Part shown: positions 11,894 through 20,337 of the stretch, in pieces
Numbering within the stretch: position 1 is the first letter of the stretch
Layout: every line of letters starts with the position of its first letter
DNA from: Oceanospirillales bacterium
GTDB lineage: Bacteria > Pseudomonadota > Gammaproteobacteria > Xanthomonadales > SZUA-36
Assembly (NCBI GenBank): GCA_003232965.1
Contig: QIKG01000107.1
Location: 1 to 35,000, forward strand
Direction: 5' to 3'
DNA length: 35,000 nucleotides
Notes under the pieces: model-generated
Databases searched by the model: none
Told to the model about the DNA's origin: nothing
What the model saw: the letters and a program-made list of their open reading frames with translations, nothing else
Made by a program: the position numbers and the translations under genes

Positions 11894-12664
11894 TCATTTC
11901 TTTTGTTGTTGCTTATATAAATCCAGTGCCTCGTCAAGCTCACCGTAAAAAATCATCTTACCTTTTGAGAGCACCAAGCCCTTGGTACACAGAGATTGCA
12001 TAAGGCTTGTGTTATGGGTGGCCAATACCAGCCCGCGACTACTCTCGACTAAGCCTTCCATACGCTGTTTTACCTTAGCCCTAAATTGCGTATCCCCAGC
12101 GCCTAGCCATTCATCAAGTAGTAATATATCCGGCTCGACTATGGTGGAAACTGAAAAGGCAAGGCGCATACGCATGCCGGTTGAATACGTATTTAACGGG
12201 TTATCAATGGCTTCGCTTAGTTCTGAAAAATCAACAATCCCTGGAACTAATTCCTTGATTTGCTTCAACTTCAAACCCATTTGCAGCCCGCGCATATAAA
12301 TGTTCTCTAGGCCGGTGGCTTCCTGGTTCATGCCGAGTGAAATTTCAAACATGCCTTTTGCTACCCCATTGACAGTCAGTTTTCCGGACGAAGGTTGGTA
12401 TATTCCAGCCAATACGCGCAGTAGCGTGCTTTTGCCAGCTCCATTAGCACCAATTAGCCCGAGGCGCTCGCCACGCTGAAGTTTAAAAGAAAGTTTATCA
12501 AGAATGGTGACAATTCCGCGCTTGGTTCGGGAGAAATAAAGGTCGGTCAAAAATCGTGACGGGTTGGATAGTAATTTGCGGTCGTTGGGCTGAAAAATTG
12601 GCACCTGCAGGGTGAGATTTTTAGCTTCAAGCAGTGGGCGTGGCTTTGGGGCATCGGTTTTCAT
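11894..12664 (-). CDS. Polysaccharide ABC exporter ATP-binding protein (Wzt/KpsT-like, no C-terminal carbohydrate-binding extension)
   Basis: LGLIGANGAGKSTLLRVLAGIYQPSSG, STGMRMRLAFS signature, DILLLDEWLGAGD, LATHN. ATG at 12664; ends at about 257 aa. Confidence 0.92.
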   Translation of the reverse strand: MKTDAPKPRPLLEAKNLTLQVPIFQPNDRKLLSNPSRFLTDLYFSRTKRGIVTILDKLSFKLQRGERLGLIGANGAGKSTLLRVLAGIYQPSSGKLTVNGVAKGMFEISLGMNQEATGLENIYMRGLQMGLKLKQIKELVPGIVDFSELSEAIDNPLNTYSTGMRMRLAFSVSTIVEPDILLLDEWLGAGDTQFRAKVKQRMEGLVESSRGLVLATHNTSLMQSLCTKGLVLSKGKMIFYGELDEALDLYKQQQKK

Positions 12665-12672
12665 TGTGACAG

Positions 12673-13455
12673 TTAAACCCAAAGCGGAACATTGTGGGCA
12701 AAACGCTTGTAAAAGAAGTTTGCCAAGGTAAATCCGACGATCGTGATAGTAATTACCACTATCCAGCTTAAAGGAGCAATGGGGTTTCCGAGCAAAGGGG
12801 CGCGGATTAATTCCAAAAAATGATAGCAAGGGTTGTAGACCAAAAACGCACCCATAACACCACCTCGGCCGTCCGTGCCTGGCATCCAGATGATAGGGGT
12901 AGCAAGAAAAGCAATGCGCATAATTGCTTGTACAACCTCCGATAGGTCACGATAACGCGCACCGATCATGCCAAAAAACATGGAAAGCCAGATACCATTA
13001 GCGATGAGCAGGGCAAGGCCGATTAGGCTGACAAGGGAATAAAAAGAAACATCTATGCCAAAAATGATAAAAACGATGACGATAAGAATAATTTTATGTA
13101 GGAAATTGAGAACGGTTGTAAACACATTAATAATAACAATATCCACAAGGTTCAAGCCACCCTGTAATATTTGCGCTCGCCCTCGTTGAAATACTGTCGT
13201 GCTGCTGGTGATAAAGCCGGTGATTAGGGTCCAAGCGATCAGGCCGATGGCGAGATGGGGGATAAATACGGCTGGGTCATTGCCACCAATACGAGAAAAC
13301 AGCATGCCTAGTAAGGCGATAAACAATGCTGGACTAACCAAAAGCCAAATTGGCCCGAGCATAGTCCTGCGATAACTAATGAGGAATTGGAACCATGTAA
13401 TATAGGCATGGCGTCCAAAGCTATCAAAAGGATAAGTCAGGATAGTACGGAGCAC
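12673..13455 (-). CDS. ABC-2 type polysaccharide exporter permease (Wzm-like)
   Basis: LISYRRTMLGPIWLLVSPALFIALLGMLF, six-TM-like hydrophobic pattern, YNPCYHFLELIRAPLLG. GTG start with AGGAGGT Shine-Dalgarno just upstream; directly followed by the ATPase gene. Confidence 0.92.
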   Translation of the reverse strand: MLRTILTYPFDSFGRHAYITWFQFLISYRRTMLGPIWLLVSPALFIALLGMLFSRIGGNDPAVFIPHLAIGLIAWTLITGFITSSTTVFQRGRAQILQGGLNLVDIVIINVFTTVLNFLHKIILIVIVFIIFGIDVSFYSLVSLIGLALLIANGIWLSMFFGMIGARYRDLSEVVQAIMRIAFLATPIIWMPGTDGRGGVMGAFLVYNPCYHFLELIRAPLLGNPIAPLSWIVVITITIVGFTLANFFYKRFAHNVPLWV

Positions 13456-13492: not shown

Positions 13493-14692
13493 TCATGTTT
13501 TTTCTGCGATTATTCTACCGACCACTGGGTTATCGTCTTTATAAACAGCAAGACCTTTCTCTTCTACTGAAAATATCTCCATAAACCCAATGGCCTTAAT
13601 TCTTTTTCTAAGTAACTGAAAGTCGATAAACCTTCTATAGTGATCAGTGATTCTTTCATTTTTACCGAATACGAAACCGCTTTTCGCCAGAGGATCATTG
13701 ATTGTCCGGAACTCAATCATTATTCGACCGCCAGATGGCAACATGGAGTAGGCTCTACGGATGAACTTCTCTTGTGCATCTTCGCTCATCGCGTGCAGCA
13801 CAAACCGAGAGTACACTACATTAATTCCCATTGGCAAGTCCAATGAGAAATCTGAGAAATCTCCATTTATGAATTCAATTTGTGGGGTTTCATTTTGAGT
13901 TAATTGTATAGCAAAATTATTGTTATTTGTTACCGCTTCTAAAGATAAATCAATACCGACTATTTTATTTTTAGCATTAATATAAAAAGTATCCCTGCCG
14001 TCACCACATCCAACATCAATGATGTGATCCTCTTTTTTCAGATAATGCTCGTTACACCAAACTGCAAAAGGGCTGGGGCTTTTATTTCTTCTTGAATTCT
14101 TATAATACTTGTTCCAATAGGCCGTAACATCTTCCTTCAATTTCCCTTCCCACATATTACTATTAACTATACCTTTATCATCAATACTGGTTGAGAATAC
14201 TTTTTCCAGAATCAAAGTTGCCGCAGCCAAAGGCGTTGTATCCCCATGGTTGTTAATCACAAGGTCAGGGTTTTGGGGTAACTCATAGTCTTGCATATAA
14301 ACACTACTATCTGCATTTTGCTTTTCTTTATAACTGGTATACAATCCTTTCTGATCTCGCTTTTGGAGTACGCTCAACGGAACCTGTAAATATACTTCCA
14401 GGTAATCAGCGTTATTTTCTCTATTCCATCTACGCACATCCTCAAACATCGCCACTGTGGCACAAATCACGGTATTGCCCTCATCAGACAAAAATTGACA
14501 CAAGCGTGAATATACAAATCCCAAGTCCTTTCTTTCTTCTTTTTCATACCCCCACCTATTGCCAAATATTGTTCTCAAATTATCTCCATCTAAAACGATA
14601 TTCCTGATACTCAATAGTTGGAGTTTTTTAGACAGACTTTTAGCAATAGTAGTTTTGCCAGACCCTGAGAGCCCGGTGACCCATATTATCAT
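13493..14692 (-). CDS. CysC-like (adenylylsulfate-kinase family) kinase fused to a class I SAM-dependent methyltransferase
   Basis: N-terminus MIIWVTGLSGSGKTTIAKSL...VLDGDNLR...RDQKGLY (CysC-like P-loop kinase). C-terminal half HIIDVGCGDGRDTFYINAKNKIVGIDLSLEAV...NVVYSRFVLHAM (SAM methyltransferase). Confidence 0.88.
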   Translation of the reverse strand: MIIWVTGLSGSGKTTIAKSLSKKLQLLSIRNIVLDGDNLRTIFGNRWGYEKEERKDLGFVYSRLCQFLSDEGNTVICATVAMFEDVRRWNRENNADYLEVYLQVPLSVLQKRDQKGLYTSYKEKQNADSSVYMQDYELPQNPDLVINNHGDTTPLAAATLILEKVFSTSIDDKGIVNSNMWEGKLKEDVTAYWNKYYKNSRRNKSPSPFAVWCNEHYLKKEDHIIDVGCGDGRDTFYINAKNKIVGIDLSLEAVTNNNNFAIQLTQNETPQIEFINGDFSDFSLDLPMGINVVYSRFVLHAMSEDAQEKFIRRAYSMLPSGGRIMIEFRTINDPLAKSGFVFGKNERITDHYRRFIDFQLLRKRIKAIGFMEIFSVEEKGLAVYKDDNPVVGRIIAEKT

Positions 14693-14727: not shown

Positions 14728-15615
14728 CTATTTAATATAATTGCCATTTTGCTCGCATTTTTCGCGATATTTTTCGATATCTTCCAGGTATGGCGCTCCT
14801 TGTAAGCTACGTAAAAACTTTTGTTTCTTAATTTCATAAAAAGCTATATCAAAGCCGATTAATTCTGAGATTTCTCGCTCTAATCCTCTTGGTATAGCAA
14901 CTGGTTTTGGTTTCGCGGTGTTTCGTTTGTCCAGCTCCCAAACAGGAGCTTGGTTGATCCCTATTTGGCTTAAAAATGATATAACTGACGCTTCAAACAG
15001 TTCACATATACCAAACCAGGAGATGTTGTTCGAAAAGTTTGCCTCCGCAACAGAAATCATTTCACCAATCGGTTTTTGGTCGATAATATGTGCAGTTTTA
15101 GTTGCTCTGTTGTCAAACGCAAATTGACGAACCTGCGCGTAAGTACGCCAATCTTGCCTTACCCAAGAGATGATATCTCGACCCATGATTTTCTCTGGAT
15201 GATGTGAGAGTAACCAGTAATATATAGAAAAAACCCTTTTCATTGGGTCGCGCAACATTGTGACACATTTAGCCCCAGGGTAGTTCTTTTCGTATCCGAA
15301 TAATCCGTGATCAATAAGAATAGGGTTGATTTCCAGTTTTTGTGAAAACTGGGCAAGCGCCTCTTCTCTTCCCGCAGGCATTTGCATATACCTACACATG
15401 AAACGCTTAATGTTTCCAGACTCTTTATAAGCCATATGAAGTGCTTTAGCGAAGGCCAAGCTACCACTTTTGTTAACACCATGGAATAAGATGGGAACAT
15501 TGTGAATAGTTGACTTCTCACTGGATGTGTTGATGCTATTAATGTTGTATATAGCCGGACGAACCAATGGTGTGTATGAGCCTGATGGTACTGCGTTTTT
15601 TGCTTTATTTATCAT
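14728..15615 (-). CDS. Sulfotransferase-family-like protein
   Basis: VPILFHGVNKSGSLAFAKAL (5'-PSB-like loop) and CVTMLRDPMKRVFSIYYWLLSHH (3'-PB-like RDPxxRxxSxY motif). Confidence 0.68.
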   Translation of the reverse strand: MINKAKNAVPSGSYTPLVRPAIYNINSINTSSEKSTIHNVPILFHGVNKSGSLAFAKALHMAYKESGNIKRFMCRYMQMPAGREEALAQFSQKLEINPILIDHGLFGYEKNYPGAKCVTMLRDPMKRVFSIYYWLLSHHPEKIMGRDIISWVRQDWRTYAQVRQFAFDNRATKTAHIIDQKPIGEMISVAEANFSNNISWFGICELFEASVISFLSQIGINQAPVWELDKRNTAKPKPVAIPRGLEREISELIGFDIAFYEIKKQKFLRSLQGAPYLEDIEKYREKCEQNGNYIK

Positions 15616-15690: not shown

Positions 15691-16563
15691 TTATTTTTTT
15701 CCAAAGATAGCGCGACAGAAATTCGGCTCGATTCCACCAGTTTCAATAAGAAATCTATCAATTTCCCACATTTCTTTTATAAATCTCATGTCATGTTCAG
15801 CATTTGTGTAATTCTGTGCAAACCCGTTAAATATTGGAAACAATACCCCGCAGAGAAAATAATGAGATTTCAAATCTAAATATTCAGTAAGAGCAGGCCA
15901 AATTGCATCTGACCTGATTGCCTCAAAGGGCGACATATTTTCCTTACACGGTATGGGTACGTTTTTGAATACTTTACCCGAATGATTAGTTCTCAATCTT
16001 TCTGGCATTGTTCTCCAGATACGCTCAGCGAGATGCAATTGTTTTTCAGTTCGCTGCAAGAACGGGCGCCCAATATAGTCGATAAGTACAAATATCCCAT
16101 CCGACTTAAGTGACTTATTAATTTCTTGTGCAACATACTCGACCTCAATCAGGTGATGGTATGCTTGCTGGATGAATATTAAGTCGTATTTTTCTTCGGG
16201 CAACACAATCTCATTGACATCGCAGATTTGGTAATTCACATTGATCGATTTATCGTAGTCACTTTGAAGAAATTTTTTCCTTTGTCCTTCACTTATATCA
16301 TAGGCGTCAATGGAGGTCGCACCTCGTGCTTTCAGGTATGCAAATTCTCCAGTCATCATTCCGCAAGCAAGACTCAAAGAAGTTATATTTTGTTTGCCGG
16401 ATAATAGATGATCTACCGAGGTAGTGATATTATATTCCTGATGAATTTGTTGCTGAAAATAGGGGATCGCACCCCAACTAACTGAGCGCGTAAGTTGGTT
16501 ATTAGCTTCGCCGAAAAACTCTGCCTCTGCTTGAAGTTTGTTCTTAAATTTACCTTTTAACAT
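15691..16563 (-). CDS. Class I SAM-dependent methyltransferase
   Basis: SLSLACGMMTGEFAYLKARGATSIDAYDISEGQ, YDLIFIQQAYHHLIEVEYVAQEINKSLKSDGIFVLIDYIG. Confidence 0.82.
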   Translation of the reverse strand: MLKGKFKNKLQAEAEFFGEANNQLTRSVSWGAIPYFQQQIHQEYNITTSVDHLLSGKQNITSLSLACGMMTGEFAYLKARGATSIDAYDISEGQRKKFLQSDYDKSINVNYQICDVNEIVLPEEKYDLIFIQQAYHHLIEVEYVAQEINKSLKSDGIFVLIDYIGRPFLQRTEKQLHLAERIWRTMPERLRTNHSGKVFKNVPIPCKENMSPFEAIRSDAIWPALTEYLDLKSHYFLCGVLFPIFNGFAQNYTNAEHDMRFIKEMWEIDRFLIETGGIEPNFCRAIFGKK

Positions 16564-16665: not shown

Positions 16666-19600
16666 TCACTCAATTGCAATAGCTTGTTTGTAATCTAATG
16701 TGCTGTAAAGCGCCTTTCGTCTGATACTTCGAATCGTGCTCAGAATTGATGCGGCAGAAGCTTCTTCAGCGATAAAACCCAAACTATAATCTTTTACACG
16801 TTCCGCCGGTGCGCCTAAATCAAAACATATCAGTGGTATGTTTAACTGCATTAATTCCTGAGTCACATATGAGAATGTTTCTGGCCAGATAGATGGTAAA
16901 ACACAGATGTTAATCCCATACTGGTAGATTAGTTCGGGAAGTTCACTGTGACGATATGAGCCATGAACAATAAAATTCGGTAGCTCACAGGCATATTGTG
17001 GATTGATTTTACCCAATAATACAATTTTCGCTGCGGGCTCACTTTTACTTAATTCCTGGGCTAAGTCGATAACAATTTTAGCACCTTTAGAAAGGTTTAG
17101 GTTGCCCACAACACCGATGACTAGACGGTCTGTTTGCGGGGCTGGGTCCAAAGGTTGAAAGTCTTTCAGAGGCTGGTGTGGCTTTACCGATGTTTTTTCC
17201 GAATCAAGCGGCCATGCGCGTGCGGCAATATCAAGACTCGCTTGTGAGAAACACACGATTTTGTGCGCCTTGGACAAAAGGTCACCCCATGTCTTACGCC
17301 ACTCGATCATACTCACACTGTTTAGTTCAGAATTTTTATTTTTCCTCAGGCATCGCCCGCATTCTTCAATATTTTCAGGCACATAGCAATAATTATCGTT
17401 ATCATTAAGTAGTGTGTAGGAGGGGCAAATAGCATAGTAATCATGAAATAATATTTTGATTTTCAATTTAACATTCTCACTAAACCTTGAAATTGTATGC
17501 ACAATTTCTAAAGGTTCAGGCCAGCCCACAATATTGCTAATAACGATATCTGCTCGGTCTATTCTGCCAAGTAGTTTGCCTATCCAGTTGATATCAGCGA
17601 AGTTAAACAGTGCTTTGGCATGGTCAAATTCGACTTGCAACCTAAAGCACATATTGCCTGCGTCATATGTGAGTAAGATTATAGGCCGTCCACTATCTAA
17701 TGTTTCCTGCACCAATCGTGCCCGGTAAGCATTAGCACCCCCCCCTAAGGCATGGTCTAAAACAAAGAGTGGATTATTTACACAGCAAAGGTGCAAAGTT
17801 ATAGACTCTCGTAGAACTCGCCATTTATCTATATTGATAAATTTTTCAACTGAGCTTTTATACTCAGGCCATCGTGAATTAATTAACGATAGATGTTTTC
17901 TAATTAATGCTTGTTTTTCTTCTGCCGAAAACGAGCCTCCATGTTTGTGATACACATACAGATTGGGAACTAAATTGTTTCTATATCCGCTTGCTATGGC
18001 TCGTTGACACCAATCATTTTCCTCTCCATATCCCTTGCCAAATGCCGCCTCGTCAAAGCCGCCGATTTTATCCCAAACCTGACGGTTTATACCCATACAA
18101 AAACCAACTCCAGTGGGTGCGTCGAGTTCTATATTTGTTTGTATTTGTAGTTGCTTGAAAGAGTGATCTATTTCCTTAACTGATAATCCAGCGACTATTG
18201 AACTATCTTGAGGGAATTCTGGGTAGCTGAAAATTGTTGCGGCATTCGAAAACGGAGTGGTCGAGGCGATGGTAGGATCCTTTATGATAGGAAACATCAA
18301 GCGTTCAAGCCAGTCTGGAGGAACAATAGTATCAGAGTTTAATATTACAAAGTTATTGGTATCACCTTTCGCCGCTTTATTTACAGTTTTCACAAAGCCT
18401 ATATTGTTGTCATTGTTTAGCACCTGAATCTGTTTATTATTACGCTCGTATATATCCAATAGGGGTTTGACCCCGGCGTCGGTACTAGAATCGTTTACCA
18501 ATAGTATTTTGTGTTTAGGGTCAGTGTTTTTAACGAGCGAGGGAAGTAGTTCCTCCAAATGCATAACGCCGTTGTATATAGGTACCAGAATAGTAATTGA
18601 CTCAGTTAGCTCTGGTACGGAAACGGGGGTTTTCGAAATTAGATCCAATGTACCCTTCAGAGGCGTGCCTAAGATGTGTATAGGCTGATTATTTGAAGGT
18701 TTTAATCCCTCTGCGGGTAGCGGTGATCGTCCTTCAACTTTCCCAAAACGCAAATAATGCAACAATGGGTTCTGCCTGGAAGAAAACACATCAGGATATT
18801 GCTGATAATACCAGTTGGAATCAAATGCTTTTGATGGGCTCCTTCCTTCATTGCCTCCATAATCTATATAATGATCAAGCAATTCTCTATGGTTTTTATT
18901 TGCCAAGTCCGCATTGTTGTTTCGATAGTAATCCTTGTCAAACATGTTGGATTTGCTAACTAATCTTCTTGTGCGTAAAACTACAATCTTGTTATGAAAT
19001 AGTTTAAATGCGCCTAGCAGCGCGTTGATTACAGAATGTTGGCTTATTTTTTTGACCAAAAGTGTCACTCGCCAAGACCTCGAACTTTCTATCGCATAGA
19101 GCCGTTCTTCGGAAAGAAGTAATTCGTCTTTTACGCCCAATATCTCCTTGTCACAGATATGTGTCTGCTCTTCAAGCTCACTGACCCTCCCTTGGGCTTG
19201 TTCAAAGCGTTTCTCAAACTTACTTGCTTTCTCTTTGGCGCTCGCCAATTTTTTATTTAATTTTGTTGTTTCTAACTCTTTTTCATACAGTTTAGTATCC
19301 AGTTTCTTGGACTTGGCTACTGCTTTTTTTATTTTTGCTCTGAGGCTACCAACCTCGTTTTTGTATTTGACTAGCTTAGTGTCCAAGCCAACAAATTCGC
19401 CATCCCGCTCCTTTCGCACCTCAGCATAAAGTCTGCTCATAATCGGACTCGCATTGCTGAATTCCGAGTCAATTTTGTCAAGCCTGGCAATAGCCTGCCT
19501 GGAACCTGGGTTGCGTGTGAGTATAAGCAATGCCTCATAGGCTCCCCCAACCCAGTCACACAGCATAGGGTCAAGCAGAACATCCTCGGTGTTGTAAAAG

Positions 19601-20337
19601 TGGTGACGATGGCTCGAAGAGAGAAACTCTTCTACCTGTGGGGCGATTTCTTTAATCGTGTGCCATCCCTCGACATCAAGTTGTTCGCTAATCTTGGAAA
19701 TACTAGCCTGCCAGTTCTCAAGGAAGTGATAATATGTGAGGATAGCGCGGTTTTGGTTACGCGTGGCTTTCTCTGCATCTAATACATGTCGCAGCCAGAG
19801 CAGAACGGCATCGACGCGTTTCATACCGTTTCGCGCCTCAAGCGACTCACATACCTCGAGCGGATTACGGAAGGTGAGAACGGGGAAAACATTTATACCC
19901 CCTTCGCGCAACAGTTCCATGAAAAATGGTGCGAAGCGACAGATGCGAGGGTCTTTGATAACAAACAGAGCGGTAGCACCATAATCGGCAACAATAATTT
20001 CGTGTATTTCTTGTTTAATTTCTTTACGTCGTTTGACGGGAAGGCGGCTTATATCTAGTGGTTGCCAGTCGTCCCACGAACTACTTAACTCAGTTAGCAG
20101 ACTATCATGATATTTAACAAGGTCTGCCGGCTCCCAATGTCCGGCTTCATTGCTTGTGTTCGGGCCAACTAGGTTTTGTGGTAGTTTTGCGCCGGCGATG
20201 CCAAGCACGCGTGTTAGTGCTGAGGTGCCTGAACGATGCATACCAAGAGCCAGTAAGCAGGTAGGTTTTCCCTCATGTGCTTTCCTAACAGCTTTGATTT
20301 TGGTTATTTTGCTTATCTTTGTATCTTGTTCAGGCAT
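16666..20337 (-). CDS. Multidomain glycan enzyme: N-terminal sulfotransferase-like domain, coiled coil, DxxYY-repeat linker, GT2 glycosyltransferase, C-terminal GT4-like glycosyltransferase
   Basis: Domain 1 LLALGMHRSGTSALTRVLG...FVIKDPRICRFAP. Coiled coil about 19.4-19.06 kb. Repeats FDKDYYRNNNADL.../FDSNWYYQQYPDV...HYLRFGKVEGRSPLP. GT2 SITILVPIYNGVMHLEELLPSL...NSDTIVPPDWLERL. GT4-like VIGVVGNLNLSKGAKIVIDLA...VLPSIWPETFSYVTQELMQLNIPLI. Confidence 0.88.
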   Translation of the reverse strand: MPEQDTKISKITKIKAVRKAHEGKPTCLLALGMHRSGTSALTRVLGIAGAKLPQNLVGPNTSNEAGHWEPADLVKYHDSLLTELSSSWDDWQPLDISRLPVKRRKEIKQEIHEIIVADYGATALFVIKDPRICRFAPFFMELLREGGINVFPVLTFRNPLEVCESLEARNGMKRVDAVLLWLRHVLDAEKATRNQNRAILTYYHFLENWQASISKISEQLDVEGWHTIKEIAPQVEEFLSSSHRHHFYNTEDVLLDPMLCDWVGGAYEALLILTRNPGSRQAIARLDKIDSEFSNASPIMSRLYAEVRKERDGEFVGLDTKLVKYKNEVGSLRAKIKKAVAKSKKLDTKLYEKELETTKLNKKLASAKEKASKFEKRFEQAQGRVSELEEQTHICDKEILGVKDELLLSEERLYAIESSRSWRVTLLVKKISQHSVINALLGAFKLFHNKIVVLRTRRLVSKSNMFDKDYYRNNNADLANKNHRELLDHYIDYGGNEGRSPSKAFDSNWYYQQYPDVFSSRQNPLLHYLRFGKVEGRSPLPAEGLKPSNNQPIHILGTPLKGTLDLISKTPVSVPELTESITILVPIYNGVMHLEELLPSLVKNTDPKHKILLVNDSSTDAGVKPLLDIYERNNKQIQVLNNDNNIGFVKTVNKAAKGDTNNFVILNSDTIVPPDWLERLMFPIIKDPTIASTTPFSNAATIFSYPEFPQDSSIVAGLSVKEIDHSFKQLQIQTNIELDAPTGVGFCMGINRQVWDKIGGFDEAAFGKGYGEENDWCQRAIASGYRNNLVPNLYVYHKHGGSFSAEEKQALIRKHLSLINSRWPEYKSSVEKFINIDKWRVLRESITLHLCCVNNPLFVLDHALGGGANAYRARLVQETLDSGRPIILLTYDAGNMCFRLQVEFDHAKALFNFADINWIGKLLGRIDRADIVISNIVGWPEPLEIVHTISRFSENVKLKIKILFHDYYAICPSYTLLNDNDNYCYVPENIEECGRCLRKNKNSELNSVSMIEWRKTWGDLLSKAHKIVCFSQASLDIAARAWPLDSEKTSVKPHQPLKDFQPLDPAPQTDRLVIGVVGNLNLSKGAKIVIDLAQELSKSEPAAKIVLLGKINPQYACELPNFIVHGSYRHSELPELIYQYGINICVLPSIWPETFSYVTQELMQLNIPLICFDLGAPAERVKDYSLGFIAEEASAASILSTIRSIRRKALYSTLDYKQAIAIE

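Follow-up and report, generated by a model that had tools for sequence, protein, structure and literature searches.

A recurrent sulfotransferase–coiled coil–glycosyltransferase architecture and its proposed role in terminating ABC-exported glycan chains

The protein described here unites a sulfotransferase-like domain, a coiled coil, two short repeats and two glycosyltransferases (GT2 and GT4) in one polypeptide, an architecture that is real, recurrent and modular. It is encoded in a 35,000-nucleotide stretch of bacterial DNA, referred to below as the window. While the underlying combination of terminator, ruler and polymerase is a known design, sulfation is the terminating chemistry proposed here: by analogy with characterised systems, the protein may end chains by adding sulfate and use its coiled coil to measure their length, a reading that we hold about as readily as we doubt it. 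If true, a sulfate cap would add one more chemistry to the known caps along with a large family that occurs in roughly one in ten of the genomes sampled from the class, and the modular layout of polymerase, ruler and terminator would serve to make sulfated glycans of defined length.

Domain architecture

The open reading frame (Table 1) runs from an ATG at 20337 to the stop codon at 16666–16668 as a single frame with no internal stop; an alternative start, a TTG five codons upstream of the ATG, is possible. With the whole protein as query, Pfam returned PF00535 (GT2, 5e-17) and PF00534 (GT4-type, 2e-14) and no match at E<0.01 within the first 300 residues. The full-length AlphaFold model (24 sequences; pLDDT 83, pTM 0.59) shows a domain of the size of a sulfotransferase together with long helices, small repeats of helical structure and the two folds GT-A and GT-B. 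All segments that the first-pass annotation had read into this ORF are therefore present, and structure prediction and HMM searches upheld the identities it had assigned to the sulfotransferase, GT2 and GT4 domains. A chance fusion or artefact could be ruled out, given the single frame, an orthologue from the same genus in the same place, and the full sulfotransferase–GT2–GT4 homologues found in Rhizobiales (locus L001), Paenibacillus (L061) and Anaerolineae (L019).

Table 1. Positions of the protein, its segments and the neighbouring genes within the window.
Feature	Position	Strand	Evidence
Whole ORF, 1,223 aa: sulfotransferase, coiled coil, DXYY repeats, GT2, GT4	16666..20337	-	
Sulfotransferase domain, aa 24-275	19513..20268	-	Invariant residues, Pfam counts, AlphaFold, Foldseek
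5'-Phosphosulfate-binding loop GMHRSGTS, aa 32-39	20221..20244	-	R35, G37, T38, S39 invariant (36 homologues)
KDPR motif, aa 128-131	19945..19956	-	K128, P130, R131 invariant, D129 nearly so (36 homologues)
3'-Phosphate-binding motif RNPLEVCES, aa 157-165	19843..19869	-	R157, S165 invariant (36 homologues)
Long helices / coiled coil, aa 280-431	19045..19500	-	Heptad periodicity; AlphaFold helices
Two DXYY...EGRSP repeats, aa 465-539	18721..18945	-	Sequence; small helical domains in AlphaFold model
GT2 (GT-A), aa 578-840, complete	17818..18606	-	PF00535 5e-17; 53% identical to L001
GT4-type (GT-B), aa 841-1215	16693..17817	-	PF00534 2e-14; intact E-x7-E at E1153
SAM methyltransferase, next gene downstream	15691..16563	-	PF08241 2.6e-11
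Orphan protein with sulfotransferase-like motifs	14728..15615	-	Sulfotransfer_3 E=0.032; PDB 3rnl E=0.26
APS-kinase-like domain fused to methyltransferase, PRK05541 subfamily	13493..14692	-	Nearest sampled relative in phosphoramidate-type cluster
Wzm, ABC-2 permease, galactan-exporter-like	12673..13455	-	PF01061 1.8e-9
Wzt, ABC ATPase without Wzt_C cap-binding domain	11894..12829	-	

The N-terminal sulfotransferase domain

On the combined evidence of conserved residues, Pfam counts, an AlphaFold model and Foldseek, the N-terminal domain is classed as a PAPS-type sulfotransferase, in agreement with the first-pass annotation, which had recognised it from motifs. An alignment of 36 homologues, 24–38% identical to the window domain, contains 14 invariant columns (G32, R35, G37, T38, S39, N63, G66, E69, K128, P130, R131, R157, P159 and S165), which is more than chance would leave among sequences only this similar. 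E69 is presumably the catalytic base and K128 the transition-state lysine, by analogy with TPST. The segment FVIKDPRICRF, quoted for this domain in the first-pass annotation, does not correspond to the 3'-phosphate motif: KDPR forms a separate invariant motif, and the 3'-phosphate motif is LTFRNPLEVCESL (R157, S165), which HMMER pairs with RNPKDVAVS of SULT1A3.

Across the 36 members, Sulfotransfer_3 is matched by 33 (E<=0.1) and Sulfotransfer_1 by 23, and the window domain itself gives a full-length but weak match to Sulfotransfer_3 (E=0.008; 16.9 bits against a curated cut-off of 27). The model of the domain alone (eight sequences) reached a pLDDT of 89.5 and a pTM of 0.89, and its best Foldseek matches were human TPST1 and TPST2 with bound PAP; matches 1–13 were all sulfotransferases, with moderate TM-scores of 0.38–0.53. 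With these two enzymes, the nearest solved fold, the window domain has in common the P-loop-like 5' motif, the 3'-phosphate R...S motif and the fold, but it differs in being fused to a coiled coil and glycosyltransferases and shares only ~15% identity with characterised sulfotransferases.

This low identity, together with the fact that the window member alone falls below the Pfam cut-off, would fit a domain that has kept the sulfotransferase fold and lost sulfate transfer or turned to another donor, serving as a glycan-binding or scaffold module. We regard such a loss as improbable, as every residue that PAPS binding and catalysis should require is invariant in the 36 relatives and an APS kinase gene lies within 20 kb of the sulfotransferase genes in five genomes besides the window (~0.65 expected). 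The domain would thus be an active sulfotransferase, although both its catalysis and its acceptor are what we infer.

The coiled coil as part of a constant unit

The Lys/Glu-rich segment shows a strong 3.5-residue periodicity at aa ~309–415, heptad periodicity puts the coiled coil at aa ~314–421, and AlphaFold places helices at aa 280–359 and 366–431, with the low confidence as a monomer that is expected for a lone coiled-coil strand. Phmmer matches to influenza HA2 were dismissed as compositional coiled-coil similarity. In a simple scan, a coiled-coil-like stretch followed the sulfotransferase domain in 22 of 27 ORFs, as compared to 9 of 171 control ORFs (other long ORFs from the same loci). 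The constant unit is hence the sulfotransferase plus coiled coil, with the glycosyltransferases being optional.

Distribution and exchange of modules

Of 369 genomes sampled from the same class, 38 have a homologue of the sulfotransferase domain, and the family is also found in loci from Campylobacterota, Bacillota and Chloroflexota. All seven scanned long ORFs with the domain (>1,000 aa) contain glycosyltransferases, in differing pairs: GT2-GT2 (L136), GT4-GT2 (L140), GT2-GT4 (L139, L142), WsaF-like-GT2 (L132), GT2-TOD1-like (L149) and at least one GT2 (L135). In split loci (L005, L006, L026, L028), the sulfotransferase half is a gene of its own beside or near a GT2–GT4 gene. The window's own genome encodes, on contig C2, a second sulfotransferase–coiled-coil protein of 575 aa that lacks glycosyltransferases and lies amid glycosyltransferase genes. 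Fusion of a sulfotransferase to glycosyltransferases, which the first-pass annotation considered unusual, is accordingly not rare: fusions recur across phyla, as do versions split into neighbouring genes.

A tree built from 82 GT2–GT4 modules groups that of the window with that of L001 (SH-aLRT 96), and along this tree the link to a sulfotransferase changes seven times, at least six of these changes being forced by well-supported branches. Elsewhere in this GT2–GT4 family, the position ahead of the coiled coil is taken by methyltransferases (L004, L033, L042, L057, L068) or, in L035, by a weak radical-SAM match. The sulfotransferase module is hence swapped with other terminator-like modules ahead of the coiled coil.

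Gene neighbourhood and PAPS supply

The gene heads a same-strand run that continues with a methyltransferase, an orphan protein, a kinase–methyltransferase fusion, Wzm and Wzt. The orphan protein is a possible second sulfotransferase judging from its motifs; it was not accepted as a confirmed one, because its hhalign comparison with A1 was not significant.

The kinase scores 114.1 bits against the apsK equivalog TIGR00455, below the cut-off of 138.7, which the kinases of L006 and L061 exceed. The closest relative of this kinase in the sample is fused to a PEP-synthase-like protein and has a nucleotidyltransferase gene and a methyltransferase next to it, a gene set that we take to resemble the O-methyl phosphoramidate clusters of Campylobacter. 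The window kinase is therefore probably not a canonical APS kinase but more like a phosphoramidate-pathway kinase, and was rejected as proof of PAPS supply on account of its subfamily and of this relative. A better PAPS context is provided by the L061 and L006 loci, and the window's own genome encodes, on contig C52, a separate APS-kinase fusion and in addition has PAPS-reductase-family genes. Overall, six genomes, the window's among them, have an APS kinase gene no more than 20 kb from a sulfotransferase gene, against an expectation of 0.65 (rough Poisson estimate, P=6e-5; P=6e-4 when the window is left out).

The same kinase brings up a different terminator. Methyltransferases lie in the window cluster, in L001 and in L146, and these could be the terminators instead; in the window, the kinase–methyltransferase fusion or the lone methyltransferase would then supply the cap, of a methyl(phosph)ate or phosphoramidate type, and the sulfotransferase would decorate the chain. 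A kinase plus a methyltransferase is the chemistry of WbdD (PMC3482155), and the phosphoramidate-type surroundings of the kinase's relative point the same way. Nevertheless, we give this assignment little credence: the annotated domains of these genes come without a coiled coil, which here follows the sulfotransferase, and the locus sequence of L061, a contig that starts at Wzt, has the sulfotransferase without any methyltransferase.

Transporter context

Among the relatives, 10 of 27 loci have Wzt no more than 1.5 kb from the sulfotransferase gene and in the same orientation, and the two genes often overlap. Such adjacency was not accepted as proof of a cap and supports the pathway only, since it is also seen for GT2–GT4 proteins without a sulfotransferase (15 of 63 within 1.5 kb). 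In five related loci (L001, L061, L134, L141, L146), Wzt bears the Wzt_C carbohydrate-binding domain. The cleanest locus of the set is L061, in which Wzt with Wzt_C is followed by the sulfotransferase–coiled coil–GT2–GT4 protein, a true APS kinase, a GT2 and an initiating sugar transferase.

In the window's Wzt, Wzt_C is absent, which makes this transporter one of the cap-independent type, and cap-gated export is not supported for the window copy. For the same reason, we describe this copy as working like the coiled-coil terminators and do not file it as a proven member. A stand-alone Wzt_C supplied in trans was considered as well, but the single match in the incomplete genome belongs to another full Wzt. 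If the window protein is a terminator, its cap acts on length rather than as an export licence, or is read otherwise.

Proposed function

Chain growth in E. coli O9a, as well as in the O12 and O7 systems of K. pneumoniae, is stopped by an enzyme that the coiled coil carries at its far end (PMC11231755; PMC3482155), and the length of the coil has been shown to set that of the chain for O9 and O12 (PMC11231755; PMC3482155). In O12 and O7, the polymerase glycosyltransferases even share a polypeptide with terminator and coil (PMC11231755). The caps described in the open literature for ABC-exported bacterial glycans are methyl, (methyl)phosphate and Kdo (PMC9445017, PMC11231755).

As the window protein follows the same terminator–coil–polymerase plan with a sulfotransferase as end module, sulfation would most likely end the chain. 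The protein may accordingly represent a polymerase–terminator that acts on a surface glycan whose exporter is the Wzm/Wzt pair encoded four genes downstream. The GT2 and GT4 domains would lengthen a lipid-linked chain at the membrane, and a chain that has grown far enough to meet the sulfotransferase, which sits at the distal end of the coil, would receive sulfate from PAPS on its non-reducing end. Terminal sulfation would stop growth, so that the coiled coil would set the length; we infer both the terminal site and the ruler. This proposal builds on the domains, the sulfotransferase fold, the PAPS residues, the transporter context and the module swapping, all established above by computation. 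The coiled coil had been suggested as a length ruler before, which fits the established systems of the same pathway (PMC11231755, PMC3482155), with the ruler role in this protein being a candidate one. The coupling of elongation to sulfation suggested alongside it likewise appears plausible, but precedent favours sulfation that ends the chain over sulfation during growth.

The latter reading, in which every repeat of the growing chain is sulfated and the coiled coil only oligomerises the protein or positions the domains, is less likely but the main rival. Sulfated repeats made via ABC transporters are known in marine bacteria (PMC11766843, PMC11641403), the lack of Wzt_C in the window's Wzt speaks for it, and the L141 cluster encodes three sulfotransferases, a sign that sulfate may be added at more than a single site, which also speaks against a terminator. 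On the other hand, the far-end enzyme is the terminator in every characterised coiled-coil protein of the ABC-transporter pathway (PMC11231755), the papers on sulfated capsules list sulfotransferases as separate genes (PMC11766843, PMC11641403), and the five related loci have a cap-reading Wzt_C. Extending the preferred reading, a sulfate terminator, beyond the window, sulfate would be a previously unrecognised class of chain-terminating cap, laid down by a widespread sulfotransferase–coiled-coil family and read by the Wzt domain in some lineages; we put this broader proposal forward tentatively, at somewhat short of even confidence.

Comparison with known systems

With the coiled-coil terminators, the window protein has in common an extended coiled coil that carries a modifying enzyme at its far end, as well as a Wzm/Wzt pair encoded in the same gene run (11894–13455). 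Both known formats occur among its relatives, namely the sulfotransferase–coil unit alone (L171 and the split loci) and the unit joined to glycosyltransferases. The first-pass annotation had raised the possibility of a common and already characterised family. The architecture is indeed common, and the design has been characterised with methyl/phosphate and Kdo terminators, but no characterised sulfotransferase version was found; our search for a sulfotransferase terminator covered the open literature.

A close parallel is ORF6 of K. pneumoniae O7, which likewise consists of an N-terminal terminator, a coiled coil and two polymerase glycosyltransferases and belongs to an ABC-transporter pathway, but has a methyltransferase-kinase terminator, a GT2-GT2 pair and an extra carbohydrate-binding module (PMC11231755). 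WbbB of K. pneumoniae O12 and R. terrigena also combines polymerase glycosyltransferases, a coiled-coil ruler and a terminator in one chain, here with a Kdo transferase (GT99) as terminator and GT102 and GT103 as polymerase modules (PMC11231755). In contrast, WbdD of E. coli O9a, a terminator with a length-setting coiled coil, is a counterpart of the stand-alone relatives L171, L028 and L005; it differs from the window protein in being a kinase-methyltransferase and in having its polymerase, WbdA, as a separate protein (PMC3482155).

The sulfated capsule clusters of Cobetia and Vibrio resemble the window in ABC-transporter export and sulfotransferases and have PAPS genes; unlike in the window, the sulfotransferases are listed as separate genes, sulfate is present in each repeat and no coiled coil is reported (PMC11766843, PMC11641403). 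In the wbsalmo cluster of A. salmonicida, ORF19, a 216-aa sulfotransferase-domain gene, is listed between wzt and wbbB (PMC4483657). It encodes a separate small protein, unlike the window protein, and is taken here as a lead. In that study, sulfate was not found in the repeat of the O-antigen (PMC4483657). One sulfate per chain, if true, would be easily missed in structural work on repeat units, and this might explain why sulfotransferase genes lie beside seemingly unsulfated glycans such as that of A. salmonicida.

Base composition and neighbouring genes

The sulfotransferase domain of the large glycosyltransferase fusion has a G+C content of 49 %, similar to that of the flanking housekeeping genes (about 50 %), whereas the rest of the protein lies at 39-42 % and the cluster at 38-46 %, a contrast that makes a mosaic origin possible. 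The 295-aa orphan protein of the cluster, which carries the motifs GVNKSGSLAFAKAL and MLRDPMKRVFSIYYWL, is probably a divergent sulfotransferase; its relatives among 368 other genomes of the class number two, both weak. The nearest relative of the kinase–methyltransferase fusion among 369 class genomes (L172, 41 % identity) has a PEP-synthase-like protein as fusion partner and is adjoined by nucleotidyltransferase and methyltransferase genes, a layout that resembles O-methyl phosphoramidate clusters.

Coordinates of the features discussed
Location	Strand	Feature
window 16669-20337	(-)	sulfotransferase–glycosyltransferase fusion
window 14728-15615	(-)	orphan protein
window 13493-14692	(-)	methyltransferase joined to APS-kinase-like (PRK05541) domain
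L172:4567-7551		relative of kinase fusion
L054:7589-11887		GT2–GT4 protein
L141:1204-11071		three sulfotransferase genes, one methyltransferase, Wzm, Wzt with Wzt_C
L169:697-1890 (own genome, contig C10)		further Wzt, then methyltransferase
L171:3843-5567 (own genome, contig C2)		575-aa sulfotransferase–coiled-coil protein, the second of this genome

Related loci

In L054, the 790 aa ahead of the GT2–GT4 portion include a coiled coil, gave no match in Pfam and possibly form another, uncharacterised end module. The fusion protein of the L141 cluster contains a coiled-coil-like stretch of more than 500 residues. Within the source genome of the window, the further Wzt shows a weak Wzt_C match at its C-terminus, and its locus is predicted to be a separate one for an ABC-exported glycan. 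The second sulfotransferase–coiled-coil protein lacks glycosyltransferase domains and is adjoined by GT2, GT4, and GT10-like genes; in this stand-alone format it resembles the chain terminator WbdD.
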